This document shows, one piece after another, positions 58,746 to 64,000 of a stretch of 64,000 bases of DNA. The notes under the pieces are model-generated. The model saw nothing but the letters and a program-made list of their open reading frames with translations. It did not search any database and had not been told where the DNA came from. The DNA is from Candidatus Baltobacteraceae bacterium. Its GTDB lineage: Bacteria > Vulcanimicrobiota > Vulcanimicrobiia > Vulcanimicrobiales > Vulcanimicrobiaceae. The stretch is taken from NCBI GenBank assembly GCA_036488875.1, contig DASXGW010000008.1, forward strand, positions 248,001 to 312,000, read 5' to 3'. The translations under genes were made by a program, and so were the position numbers. Each line of letters opens with the position of its first letter. The stretch's first letter is position 1.

Positions 58746-60355
58746 TGCCAGGCGTTCCACGTGTCGGCTAAAAATGCGGCCGGCTCGTAGTTCTTGACGT
58801 CCGTATTGACCGCCGTGTAGTTCATTTGCCAGCTGAAGAACACGCTGGGCACCAGTTCGCGTATGCGCTCCTCTTCGCGCTGATAGAGCGCTTTGCGTTT
58901 AGCCGGATCGAAGGTGCTCGCGGCCGCTTCGCTGGTGGCGTTGACGATCGGATCGTTGAGCCACGTCGTATTGGCGCCGTTGGGCGGAATGTACGCCGCG
59001 CTCCAGTTGCCGGTGTTGTCGGGATCGGGGCCGTTCGTGTCGACCGACCATTCCAGATCGTACTTGCCGGTGTAGAGCGGGCCGTTCTGCGCGAACAGAT
59101 AGCTGCCGGGGAAGTTGCGCACCATCAAGTCGATGCCCAGCGGGTGCAGAAACGACTGCATCATGACTTGAGATTGCGTGTTCTCTTCGTGGCCGGTGGT
59201 CGCATAGATCGTCAAGTGCATCGCGAGGGGCCCTTTGTGCAGCACGCCGTCGCCGCCCATCTTCCAGCCCGCGTCAGCCAGCAGCTTGCGTGCGTCGTTG
59301 GGGTCGTAGCGGTACGGCGGCAGGGCCGGTGCGGCCCACAGCAGCGGATAGACGTCGGAAACGGCGAGCCGATCGTAGCCGCGATAAATCGTGTCGTTGA
59401 TGCGCTTCCAATCGACGGCTTCGGAGATGGCGCGGCGGACGCGCACGTCGGCGAGCAGCGGATGGCTCAAGTTCATGTCGAGATGCCGCCAGTTTCCGAT
59501 GAGCCGCCTGTCGACCGCGATGCCTTGGATCGTAGCGAGCCGCGCGATCGCGCTCGGCGGCGTGACCGCCGGATACACGTCGACTTCGTGCGTCGCGAGC
59601 TGATTGAAGAGCGTGTTCGTGTCCGGAACGACCTTCCAGATGAGTTCCTTGAGTTTCGGCGCGCCGCGGAAGTAGCGCGGATTGGGAACGAACTCCAGCG
59701 ACGAACCGTGGTTCCAGGCTTTGAGCAGATACGGTCCGCTGGAAATCGGCTTGCTGTTGAACTCCGACGAGTTGATGTTCGGTGACTTTGCGAGAAGATG
59801 TGCGGGCATCGGCGGATACGCGGCGCCGCTCATGGTCAGAATACCCAGCACCTCGACGCTGGGGCGTTTGAGGTGCAGCACGATCGTATAGGGATTCGGC
59901 GCGCTCGCCGATGCGATCAGATCCCAGCCGTAGCGCGTCTTGACGTTGTTCTGTGGGTTCATCACCGCGCGATACGTGAAGAGCCAGTCGGCCGCGGTCA
60001 ACGGCGCACCGTCGGACCACACGACGCCTTTGCGCAGATGCACGACGATCGTCCTGCCGTCGCGCGAGATGCCCCCGTTGGCCGGCGTCGGAACCGCGGT
60101 TGCCAAATCGGGAATGTAGTTGCCGTTCGCATCGACCCGCATGAGAAACGAGAAGAGCAGCGGCGCAATATTATCGGTGGCCCACGTGTGACCGTACATC
60201 AAGTTGAGACTGTCGGGTTCCTCGGGAGCGCCGATCCGCAAGACGCCGGGGATCGTCCACGGATTCCGATTGCCCGTGCCGGTGCTCTGGGGTTTCGAGC
60301 AGGCCGCGCACGCGGCCGCCAACGCGATCGCGAGGAGGCGGCGCGCCAGACTCAC
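58733..60355 (-). CDS. Oligopeptide-binding lipoprotein (SBP family 5)
   Basis: 540 residues from a GTG overlapping the previous stop (GTGA). Lipoprotein signal with lipobox CAACS. The family-5 fold is shown by VLRIGAPEEPDSLNLMYG, IVVHLRKGVVWSDGAPLTAAD and DVRVRRAISEAVDWKRIN. It is clearly homologous to the N-terminal half of the fusion at 23267 but ends without the S51 domain. No permease or ATPase genes follow. In this operon it probably supplies peptides or muropeptides to the epimerase and DUF1611 enzymes. Confidence 0.9.
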   Translation of the reverse strand: MSLARRLLAIALAAACAACSKPQSTGTGNRNPWTIPGVLRIGAPEEPDSLNLMYGHTWATDNIAPLLFSFLMRVDANGNYIPDLATAVPTPANGGISRDGRTIVVHLRKGVVWSDGAPLTAADWLFTYRAVMNPQNNVKTRYGWDLIASASAPNPYTIVLHLKRPSVEVLGILTMSGAAYPPMPAHLLAKSPNINSSEFNSKPISSGPYLLKAWNHGSSLEFVPNPRYFRGAPKLKELIWKVVPDTNTLFNQLATHEVDVYPAVTPPSAIARLATIQGIAVDRRLIGNWRHLDMNLSHPLLADVRVRRAISEAVDWKRINDTIYRGYDRLAVSDVYPLLWAAPALPPYRYDPNDARKLLADAGWKMGGDGVLHKGPLAMHLTIYATTGHEENTQSQVMMQSFLHPLGIDLMVRNFPGSYLFAQNGPLYTGKYDLEWSVDTNGPDPDNTGNWSAAYIPPNGANTTWLNDPIVNATSEAAASTFDPAKRKALYQREEERIRELVPSVFFSWQMNYTAVNTDVKNYEPAAFLADTWNAWQWSI

Positions 60356-61416
60356 GCCGGCGCGATCCGCAGCAGCGACCGCTTCTCGATGTGCGGCGCG
60401 ATCTCGTCGTAAAAACGATAGGGTAGGTGCCGCACGACGTCATCGACGGGGAGGCCCGTTTCGCGCCGCGCGCGGCCGATCTCTTCGCCGGCGCGCTCGT
60501 CGGAGAGTCCGCGCGTATTGAGCGCGATGCCGATCACTTTTGCGGGCTTGATCGTAGCAAGCAGTCTTTCGTGGATATCGATGAGGTCGCGATAGCTCAA
60601 GGTCGGCGTTTCGAACGATTCGATGTGCGTGCGCGTCGGATCGCAAACGAGCACCAACCCGTCGGGCGCCGATCCGGTCATCAGCGCCAGCGTTACCGGG
60701 GCGTACGCGGGATGGTTGATCGAGCCCTGACCCTCGACGACGATGAGATCGGCGCCTTCGTGCGCGGCGTAGAGCACGAGTTGCTCCGTTGCGCCGGGAG
60801 CAAAATCCGAGATCACGCGATCCACCGAGATACCCCAGCCCGCGATCATGATGCCGGTCTGTCCCGTCGGCACGAAGCGCGCTTTGGTTCCCTTTTCCGT
60901 TGCGGCGCGAACGAGCTCGAGTGCGACCGTCATTTTGCCGACGGCGCAATCGTTGCCCACCATCAAGAGAATCGGCGCGACTACGTCGTAGACGGCGCCG
61001 CTGAAGATCGGCGTGTCCGGCGGTTTGCGTACGTCCCAAATCTCCACGCCGGCGCTCTCGGCTGCCGCTCGAAACTCGTCGTCGTCGCCGAGCATGTCGT
61101 GCAGGCCGCTCACAATTTCCAGTTTTGCCGCGATCGCGTCGAGCACGGCCTGACGCCAATCGTCCGGCAGTGCGCCACCCTTGGGCGCGGTGCCTATGAG
61201 CAATGAGGTCGGTTTAAACTCGAGTGCCCGATCGACCGTCGCGACGATCGGCGCGGTGCTGCGCAGATGCGGCAGTACGTCGGCGACGGTTTTGCCGGCG
61301 TATTCGGCATCGATGACCGCGACGACGTCGTCCGCACCGTAGGCAATGACGCCGTGCGCGGTTTTCGCGTCCCCGGCGAAACGTCCGGGCGCGAGAATGG
61401 CGTACCGGCGCTTCAC
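60352..61416 (-). CDS. DUF1611 protein, DgcN-like (D-glutamate N-acyltransferase candidate)
   Basis: 354 residues from the GTG at 61416, overlapping the epimerase stop (GTGA). An N-terminal Rossmann-like domain (RYAILAPGRFAGDAKTAHGV, LLIGTAPKGGALPDDW) precedes a P-loop domain with MVGNDCAVGKMTVALEL and VVEGQGSINHPAYAPV, the DUF1611 layout. Family members named DgcN were reported to N-acetylate D-glutamate together with a DgcA racemase; the adjacent epimerase fits that pair. DUF1611 proteins of other function exist, so the assignment rests on family plus context. Confidence 0.82.
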   Translation of the reverse strand: MKRRYAILAPGRFAGDAKTAHGVIAYGADDVVAVIDAEYAGKTVADVLPHLRSTAPIVATVDRALEFKPTSLLIGTAPKGGALPDDWRQAVLDAIAAKLEIVSGLHDMLGDDDEFRAAAESAGVEIWDVRKPPDTPIFSGAVYDVVAPILLMVGNDCAVGKMTVALELVRAATEKGTKARFVPTGQTGIMIAGWGISVDRVISDFAPGATEQLVLYAAHEGADLIVVEGQGSINHPAYAPVTLALMTGSAPDGLVLVCDPTRTHIESFETPTLSYRDLIDIHERLLATIKPAKVIGIALNTRGLSDERAGEEIGRARRETGLPVDDVVRHLPYRFYDEIAPHIEKRSLLRIAPA

Positions 61417-62432
61417 GTCAGCGCCGTTTCTTTCACACCTAAACCGGGAGCATCGGGAAGTACGATCTTTCCGCGATCGTACGTGATGCCGGCAAACGGA
61501 TCGCGTGCGGTCAAAAACGGGCCGTCGATGTCGGCCCAATCGACCAGCGGCGAGAGGTGAGCGGCCGCGGTTGCGGCGATCGCGCTCTCGACCATGCAGC
61601 CGAGCATGACCTTCATGCCCATCGCACGCGCCGTGTGAATCATCGCAAGTGCGCCGCGGATACCGCCGGTCTTGGCGAGCTTGACGTTGACGCCGTCGAC
61701 GCAACCGTAGAGCTGCGGCAGATCGCTTGCGACCATCGAATCTTCATCGGTAACGATAGGGATCGATACGCGCTCGCGAACGGCGCGCAGGCCTTGCGGA
61801 TTTCCGGCCGGAATCGGCTGCTCGCAGAACTCAATGTCGAAGCGCTCGAGCTCGCGCAAAACCTCCACCGCCGTTTCGACGTCCCAACCTTCGTTGGCGT
61901 CGATGCGAACGATACCGCGATACCGCTGCCGAATCAGCGTCATCGTTTCGACTTGCTCGGCAACCGAGCCGAGTCCGAGCTTCACCTTGAGAATCGGATG
62001 ATCGCCCACTTCGGCAACCTTGCGGATCGTCGTTTCGGGATCCGCGATGCCGATCGTGAACGACGTGACCGGGGTCAACGACGGATCGAGCCCGAGCAGC
62101 GCGTACAGCGGCTTACCGAGGTCTTTTCCGATCAGGTCGTGCAGCGCCAGGTCCAGACCGCCGCGCGCGGCGGGCGGAATGCCGTCGTGCAGCAGCGCTT
62201 CGAGGTTATACGGATCGTCCGACGCGAGTGCGTGCGTCGCAAAGTAGTCGATGACGCTTTCAACCGACTCGTCGTAGCGCTCGACCGGCGCGGCTTCGCC
62301 CAATCCCTCGAGCTCGCCGTATCTGACGCGCACCAGCGCCGTGCGGGAGACCGTCTCTTCGCCGCGCGCGATCTTAAACGGATGGACGAGCGGCAGCTCC
62401 AGCGATGAAACCGAAACCGAAAGCGCTGACAT
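61413..62432 (-). CDS. Enolase-superfamily dipeptide/N-acyl-amino-acid epimerase (DgcA-like)
   Basis: 339 residues. TIM-barrel acid-base epimerase with Lys149/Lys151 in LKVKLG, metal ligands Asp178 (DANEGW), Glu204 (FCEQP) and Asp229 (TDED), Lys254 in KLAKTGG, and Asp301-x-Asp303 in WADIDGP. The DxD is the element that holds the dipeptide N-terminus in L-Ala-D/L-Glu epimerases. With the following DUF1611 gene it resembles the DgcA-DgcN pair, in which DgcA racemises N-acetyl-D-glutamate. Either role leads from D-Glu to L-Glu. First gene of the four-gene operon; the candidate RNA lies just upstream. Confidence 0.88.
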   Translation of the reverse strand: MSALSVSVSSLELPLVHPFKIARGEETVSRTALVRVRYGELEGLGEAAPVERYDESVESVIDYFATHALASDDPYNLEALLHDGIPPAARGGLDLALHDLIGKDLGKPLYALLGLDPSLTPVTSFTIGIADPETTIRKVAEVGDHPILKVKLGLGSVAEQVETMTLIRQRYRGIVRIDANEGWDVETAVEVLRELERFDIEFCEQPIPAGNPQGLRAVRERVSIPIVTDEDSMVASDLPQLYGCVDGVNVKLAKTGGIRGALAMIHTARAMGMKVMLGCMVESAIAATAAAHLSPLVDWADIDGPFLTARDPFAGITYDRGKIVLPDAPGLGVKETALT

Positions 62433-62486
62433 ACGGTGCGCATTTCCATTTCTTAGTCCGCTATCCTCGAAGGACTTGACGGCCGG

Positions 62487-62495
62487 TGGTAAGGT
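62487..62495 (+). promoter_or_regulatory. Extended -10-like motif before candidate RNA
   Basis: TGG-TAAGGT fits an extended -10 (TGn plus TAnnnT) and places a start about seven bases downstream, at 62502, exactly where the closing helix of the candidate RNA begins. No good -35 stands at the usual distance; a TTGACG at 62476 is too close. Confidence 0.4.
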
Positions 62496-62501
62496 AGAGG
62501 G

Positions 62502-62730
62502 GCTCGACTGCGCATGGCGCGCAACGTGCTTTGGTGCCGAACCGACTAGTTGACTAAGGGAGCATCAGCTCCGGATACGACGGCCGGGTGAGCTACACGC
62601 TTGCCCAACCTGCGCCCGGGCCGCACCCACCTGCGAGAACGCAGGTTCGCATACCGGGTACGGCAGACGTTACGTGCGGTTGAGCGCGATTGAAGCAAGT
62701 GCGATGCGCCACGAGCGCATCGCACTTTGC
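62502..62730 (+). ncRNA. Candidate structured noncoding RNA of unknown family
   Basis: A gene-free stretch folds on the plus strand into a closed multi-branch structure. 62502-62513 pairs with 62674-62685 (12 continuous pairs, three G-U). 62535-62543 pairs with 62657-62665 (one mismatch). Inside are hairpins GGAGC-AUCA-GCUCC (62559-62572), 62581-62585/62619-62623 enclosing GGGUGAGC-UACAC-GCUUGCCC, and ACCUGCG-AGAA-CGCAGGU (62629-62646). G-U pairs make the plus strand the better folding one. A terminator-like hairpin follows. No match to tmRNA, RNase P, SRP, 6S or cobalamin riboswitch motifs was seen by eye. Confidence 0.45.
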
Positions 62731-63398
62731 ATTTCGGCGATGCTCGCGTCGCCCGACGGCTCGTCGAGGGCCAAGTATCCGCGAAACTGCGCGAAGCCGC
62801 GAATCACGTCGCCGACGGATCGTTCGGTTTCGTCACCTACGTTGCTCCACAACAGCACGCTGTTCGCGGCGAGCGCTGAAGGATCGCTTGCCGCGTCGAG
62901 CGCGCGCGGCTCCGGACCGAAGCGCAGCCACGCAGAATCGGTTTCCTTGGCGACGCGTTTGCAATCGTGCGTCGTTGCGGCGAACGTTCCCGGCGCGTTG
63001 CGCACGGCCAATGTGACGTTATGCGTTTTGGCAAGCGACGTCGCGGTGGATAAAGCGGCGAGCTGTTCGCTCCACGACCAGGTCGTTTCGGCGGCCAGCG
63101 GCGCCGCGACCAGGGGCGCGCCGACGGCGACTGCAATCCGCAAGGTCGCCGGCATGCGATCGTTCGACGCTCCGAAGAACCCCGCGTCGGATATTGCGGC
63201 GATCGTGAGGCCGCGGTCGGCTGCCATCTTCTTGACCTGCGCGAGATACTCGTCGTCGCTGCGGGGAAAGTGCCGGACGTCGAGCGCGATACCGTCGGCC
63301 GCAAGCTCTTGCGCGCACAGATCCACCCACTCCAACTGGGTGAGGTCCCCGCGCTCGATGACGCGATTGAGCGCGCTGCTGGCGGCGGCTAATTTCAC
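62670..63398 (-). CDS. Putative sugar-phosphate isomerase/AP-endonuclease-2-like TIM barrel
   Basis: 242 residues from the GTG at 63398, which has GGAGG about a dozen bases upstream; longer starts would overlap glyA. The order [43 protein letters not shown] and [18 protein letters not shown] is that of the xylose-isomerase-like TIM barrels. Metal ligands typical of the family are only partly evident, and the substrate is unknown. Its 3' end overlaps the terminator-like hairpin and closing helix of the candidate RNA on the other strand. Confidence 0.65.
62697..62735 (+). terminator. Perfect 13-bp hairpin, probable intrinsic terminator
   Basis: AAGTGCGATGCGC (62697-62709) and its exact complement (62715-62727) enclose the loop CACGA and are followed by TTTGCATTTC on the plus strand, a broken U-tract. 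The minus-strand side has no such tract, so it most likely ends the candidate RNA. It lies inside the last codons of the isomerase-like gene. Confidence 0.5.
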
Positions 63399-63401
63399 GG
63401 G

Positions 63402-63418
63402 GGAGGCTGTTCGCCTCC
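63402..63418 (-). promoter_or_regulatory. Hairpin covering the ribosome-binding site of the isomerase-like gene
   Basis: GGAGGC and GCCTCC pair around the loop TGTTC on the plus strand. On the minus strand the GGAGGC arm is the likely Shine-Dalgarno of the gene starting at 63398, so the hairpin would hide it. The 61-base region also separates this gene from the divergent glyA and must contain both promoters. Confidence 0.35.
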
Positions 63419-63459
63419 GCCCGGAATGTCCCCGTAGCGCGTCGAGCGAAGGGTCTGCC

Positions 63460-64000
<541 letters not shown>

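Follow-up and report, generated by a model that had tools for sequence, protein, structure and literature searches.

The analysed stretch of DNA (64,000 nucleotides, hereafter the window) contains, between positions 62487 and 62735, a region in which the initial annotation had placed a structured RNA gene on the plus strand. Our analysis confirms this placement: the region encodes a structured plus-strand RNA some 186 nt long that is kept in relatives and shows covariation among them (Table 1). Upstream lies a divergent gene for an enzyme of the enolase superfamily, and downstream a converging gene for a TIM barrel protein, the stop codon of which overlaps the 3' arm of the RNA (62670-62686). 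Neither tRNA nor tmRNA genes were found at 60000-64000. As argued below, the RNA is best read as 6S RNA, a well-known small RNA that resembles an open promoter, ties up RNA polymerase in resting cells and acts as a global brake on transcription. A serine hydroxymethyltransferase gene (PF00464, 63460-64000) starts one gene away from it; in E. coli, 6S adjoins fau, another one-carbon gene, and the presence of a one-carbon gene near 6S in both places is possibly a coincidence.

Table 1. Features of the putative 6S RNA locus and of its neighbours (window coordinates)
Feature	Positions	Strand	Basis or remark
Mandelate racemase / muconate lactonizing (enolase superfamily) enzyme, divergent neighbour	61413-62432	-	ORF, PF13378 and PF02746
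Promoter block: CTTGAC (62475-62480) and extended -10 TGGTAAGGT (62487-62495)	62475-62495	+	conserved in relatives
Putative 6S RNA (ssrS), about 186 nt	62501-62686	+	full-length RF00013 match; model R1 62501-62686
Closing stem, 5' arm	62502-62513	+	12 bp with 62674-62685; two-sided changes in 6 of 12 pairs
P2 (downstream helix), 5' arm	62533-62543	+	de novo from 44 sequences; covaries
Predicted pRNA template	62533-62546	+	pRNA GUCGGUUCGGCACC, start opposite C62546; placed by equivalence in the RF00013 alignment
Central bubble, 5' strand	62544-62557	+	unpaired in consensus structure
Apical stem (arms 62558-62583 / 62609-62628)	62558-62628	+	consensus structure, covariation
Variable apical hairpin	62586-62606	+	sequence varies among relatives
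Central bubble, 3' strand	62629-62643	+	unpaired in consensus structure
3' central-bubble hairpin ACCUGCG-AGAA-CGCAGGU	62629-62646	+	alternative to inner P2 pairs
P2 (downstream helix), 3' arm	62644-62655	+	de novo from 44 sequences; covaries
Xylose isomerase-like TIM barrel protein, converging neighbour	62670-63479	-	ORF, PF01261
Closing stem, 3' arm	62674-62685	+	pairs with 62502-62513
Perfect 13-bp hairpin, plausible 6S terminator	62697-62727	+	covaries in syntenic relatives

Family assignment and distribution among relatives

In a permissive-threshold search, the Rfam model of 6S RNA (RF00013) spans 62502-62686 end to end (model positions 1-187 of 187) at 33.6 bits (E = 2.7e-5 in a search of 401 bases), and this full-length match identifies the RNA, which the initial annotation had left as an unassigned candidate, as a member of a known family. 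The region had looked unassigned because Rfam at gathering scores gave no match in the window, and it gave none in 17 relatives. The gathering score for RF00013 is 46.4 bits, a curation threshold and no biological feature; the match in the window falls below it, which counts against the 6S assignment. A genome-wide RF00013 search returned the same place as the sole 6S-like one in the 3.7-Mb genome (E = 5.9e-5). A length of 186 nt and a single place agree with the size of 6S RNA (about 180-200 nt) and with its usual number of one gene per genome.

Because of this homology, the single copy, the conserved and covarying rod, and the conserved promoter with a terminator-like hairpin, we regard 62501-62686 of the plus strand as the single, divergent 6S RNA (ssrS) gene of this Candidatus Eremiobacterota (Vulcanimicrobiota/WPS-2) bacterium, with a probability of about 0.96 as judged from sequence comparison. 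The gene does not represent a new RNA class; its novelty is confined to being a divergent copy of a known RNA that had escaped annotation.

Of 99 genomes in this family, 88 contain similar DNA; among the 55 good-quality ones it is present in 54. The relatives share a core specific to the family, GGGAGCAUCAGCUCCGG ... GCGCCCGGGCCGCACCCACCUGC, with hardly any variation, and a 22-base core pattern matches 69 public records, whose phylum, where named, is Candidatus Eremiobacterota, Vulcanimicrobiota, WPS-2 or UBP12. RF00013 matches 21 of the 99 genomes searched in the same family, every one under the cut-off, and four genomes of the sister family, three above the gathering score, at the homologous place.

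A separate model (R1) was built from 26 family sequences only, with the sister family held out. Sequences of that sister family score 98-106 bits with R1, while no other place in the window exceeds 15 bits. Of 149 genomes across the phylum, 112 contain a match to R1, as a single copy in each; over the same 149 genomes RF00013 matches 62, 38 of these above the cut-off. Outside the order, 21 genomes are hit by both models at identical bases, with ends that agree to within three; RF00013 scores 41-98 bits in these genomes, and this coincidence connects the window with RNAs that are 6S beyond dispute. R1 gives no match to E. coli ssrS, a result that weighs against the 6S assignment. In one genome (G025), R1 finds no whole 6S copy; the halves of the region are matched on separate contigs (C44:24111-24217 and C25:10026-10125), which probably reflects an assembly break within the 6S gene.

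These data also bear on the suggestion that the likeness to 6S is accidental and that the locus encodes some other structured RNA, such as one acting in cis on the overlapping neighbour gene or antisense to it. The RF00013 score under the gathering threshold and the overlap of the 3' end of the RNA with the neighbour's stop codon would fit such an RNA, but it is opposed by the agreement of two separately built models outside the order, by the single copy per genome, by the conservation that in many relatives stops at the 6S end without extended similarity to the neighbour, and by the search of the window's genome, which revealed no second, better-scoring 6S locus. We consider this explanation extremely improbable.

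Rod structure and covariation

RNAalifold, run on 44 sequences and not given the 6S structure, returned a closing stem, P2, a central bubble that stays open, and an apical stem. The rod with the full closing stem is paired in 94.9% of cells and shows two-sided changes in 14 of its 36 pairs (44 sequences). None of 500 shuffles, which ignore relatedness, reaches the observed covariation value on any of five measures, and slid versions of the rod drop to 34-42% paired, a control that is favoured by the structure being derived from the same sequences. The closing helix described in the initial annotation is present and has exactly 12 bp (62502-62513 with 62674-62685). It contains three G-U pairs (62506-62681, 62509-62678 and 62512-62675), which had been taken as an argument for the plus strand; the argument holds, since the U-G pair 62509-62678, invariant in 44 of 44 sequences, would turn into an A-C mismatch on the other strand and therefore supports the plus strand.

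The minimum-energy fold contains a hairpin, GGAGC-AUCA-GCUCC (62559-62572), in competition with the conserved apical stem. This hairpin is rejected as lacking covariation support: in the sister family a change of GCUCC to UCUCC breaks it, and a change of the apical-stem partner from C to A keeps the pair of the apical stem, whose covariation includes G-C to U-A. The predicted minimum-energy fold of the window RNA differs from the rod, which at -85.0 versus -89.4 is 4.4 kcal/mol higher, and this too speaks against the 6S assignment.

Folding energy was compared with shuffles on both strands. For 62500-62688, the plus strand gives z -3.31 (0 of 200 shuffles as good) and the minus strand z -1.80 (9 of 200); when the range is widened to 62475-62740, the order is reversed (minus z -3.66, plus z -2.91), and therefore folding energy alone cannot settle the strand. 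This ambiguity would suit an intergenic spacer that contains no RNA gene at all and owes its folding to chance, being merely conserved or rich in GC, but the covariation exceeding all shuffles and lying far above the slid controls, the conserved promoter block and the full-length 6S match all contradict it, leaving such a spacer a probability next to nil.

Promoter, palindrome and terminator-like hairpin

The extended -10 noticed initially is present and belongs to a promoter block that, with few exceptions, the aligned relatives also have in front of 6S. In the relatives CTTGAC is followed after 8-9 bases by the -10, which TG usually precedes; most members of the family have TACGGT as the -10, the sister family has TATAGT, and others have GATAAT. 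The block pattern has one occurrence in the window's genome. A generic sigma-70 scan found no promoter upstream of 6S, and TTGACG at 62476 was rejected as a normal -35, being just 8 nt from the -10, which is too close.

Many relatives have a palindrome, GTCAAG-W-CTTGAC, that overlaps the -35 region and of which CTTGAC forms the right half. It is present in 19 of 61 family genomes and in 18 of those 19 is found at the 6S promoter (L140, L146, L150, L157 and others have it in full upstream of 6S); the window's genome has the right half-site only, at 62475-62480. Three GTCAAGWCTTGAC sites away from 6S lie inside coding sequence and look like chance occurrences. Since the palindrome is nearly exclusive to the 6S promoter in the genomes that carry it, a dedicated regulator would control 6S RNA if the palindrome were the operator of such a transcription factor in this family, an idea that we put forward tentatively and hold to be rather doubtful. 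In G078 (L045, just upstream of 1500) an inverted-repeat insert of about 40 bases, CTTCTAGGAGCC...GGCTCCTAGAAG, is located between the promoter and the closing stem, and the 6S transcript there would therefore carry an extra 5' hairpin.

The perfect 13-bp hairpin with terminator-like character was also correctly recognised at the outset. It is followed by TGCATTTC, a weak U-tract, and shows two-sided changes in 9 of 13 pairs among 10 relatives, to which shared codon constraints may contribute. A scan for U-rich terminators at the 6S 3' end found none; different strong hairpins with U-runs lie downstream of 6S in other relatives, for example L025, L026 and L042. The hairpin is placed inside the last codons of the TIM-barrel gene, so that one stretch of DNA would serve as both protein end and RNA terminator.

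Proposed action and comparison with known 6S-type RNAs

The predicted pRNA begins with GUCGGUUC, and its duplex with the template has a predicted energy of -28.4 kcal/mol. Its start at 62546 is presumably the equivalent of the E. coli 6S pRNA start site, with which we equate it via the RF00013 alignment; almost every relative has a pyrimidine there.

ACCTGCG is found at 62608 and 62629 and CGCAGGT at 62640, from which the initial annotation had derived two alternative folds. One of them withstands comparison: the 62629/62640 pairing corresponds to the known 3' bubble hairpin, is paired in 97.8% of cells and scarcely varies, so that the alignment shows its conservation but gives no proof by covariation. 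L048 and L050 have CCUGA...UCAGG there and, by eye, keep the pairing. The other fold, 62608/62640, was discarded as not conserved, with 73.7% of cells paired, zero two-sided changes and one pair that 34 of 44 sequences cannot form. Folding prediction for the rod yields the full 7-bp 3' bubble hairpin once the presumed pRNA template is made unavailable for pairing.

From 6S homology we infer the cell role of the RNA, namely its expression, polymerase binding, pRNA synthesis and release. An RNA of about 186 nt would be transcribed from the promoter with the extended -10 TGGTAAGGT just upstream and would fold to a rod whose open central bubble mimics a melted promoter. In resting cells it would occupy the RNA polymerase holoenzyme with the housekeeping sigma factor. 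As nucleotides return, the polymerase would copy the 5' side of the bubble into the short pRNA, predicted to be GUCGGUUCGGCACC, which would open helix P2; the freed 3' strand may then form the hairpin ACCUGCG-AGAA-CGCAGGU, and 6S RNA would be released.

With RF00013 and E. coli 6S RNA, the window RNA shares the length of about 186 nt, the closing stem, P2, the central bubble and the apical stem (187 positions aligned), but it is GC-rich, has the almost invariant family core, and scores under the RF00013 gathering cut-off across the whole family; the family promoter also differs from that of E. coli 6S in having CTTGAC close to the -10. In both RNAs an extended hairpin is possible in the 3' strand of the bubble (predicted for the window RNA); it forms likewise upon release in 6S RNA of the E. 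coli type, where it has 9 bp (PMC8876501) as against 7 bp in the window. The architecture is also that of Bacillus subtilis 6S-1 RNA, and the predicted pRNA of the window starts with G, as GTP initiates in B. subtilis (PMC8876501). B. subtilis has two 6S paralogs, whereas the window's genome has one copy. In B. subtilis 6S-1 the 3' bubble hairpin is smaller, and a central bubble collapse helix is used (PMC8876501).

The RNA of this lineage could also be 6S-shaped and work like Ms1 of Actinobacteria, which binds the core polymerase without sigma and does not serve as a template for pRNA. Ms1 has a 6S-like shape, is structurally related to 6S and binds RNA polymerase (PMC9130861), and the form of polymerase that is bound cannot be proven from sequence alone. 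However, the match in the window is to RF00013, with no Ms1 family among the cmscan matches up to E 10, distant relatives in the phylum have scores that mark this lineage clearly as 6S, and the pyrimidine at the pRNA start position is kept in nearly all relatives. Action in the manner of Ms1 is thus very unlikely, and we retain the 6S reading.

A literature search that reached only a minority of subscription papers returned no paper naming 6S RNA alongside Eremiobacter-, Vulcanimicrob- or WPS-2. The Rfam cut-off misses 6S in 99 of the 99 family genomes searched, which represents an annotation gap: annotation by this cut-off would wrongly present these species as lacking 6S RNA, and the present alignment could broaden the RF00013 model.
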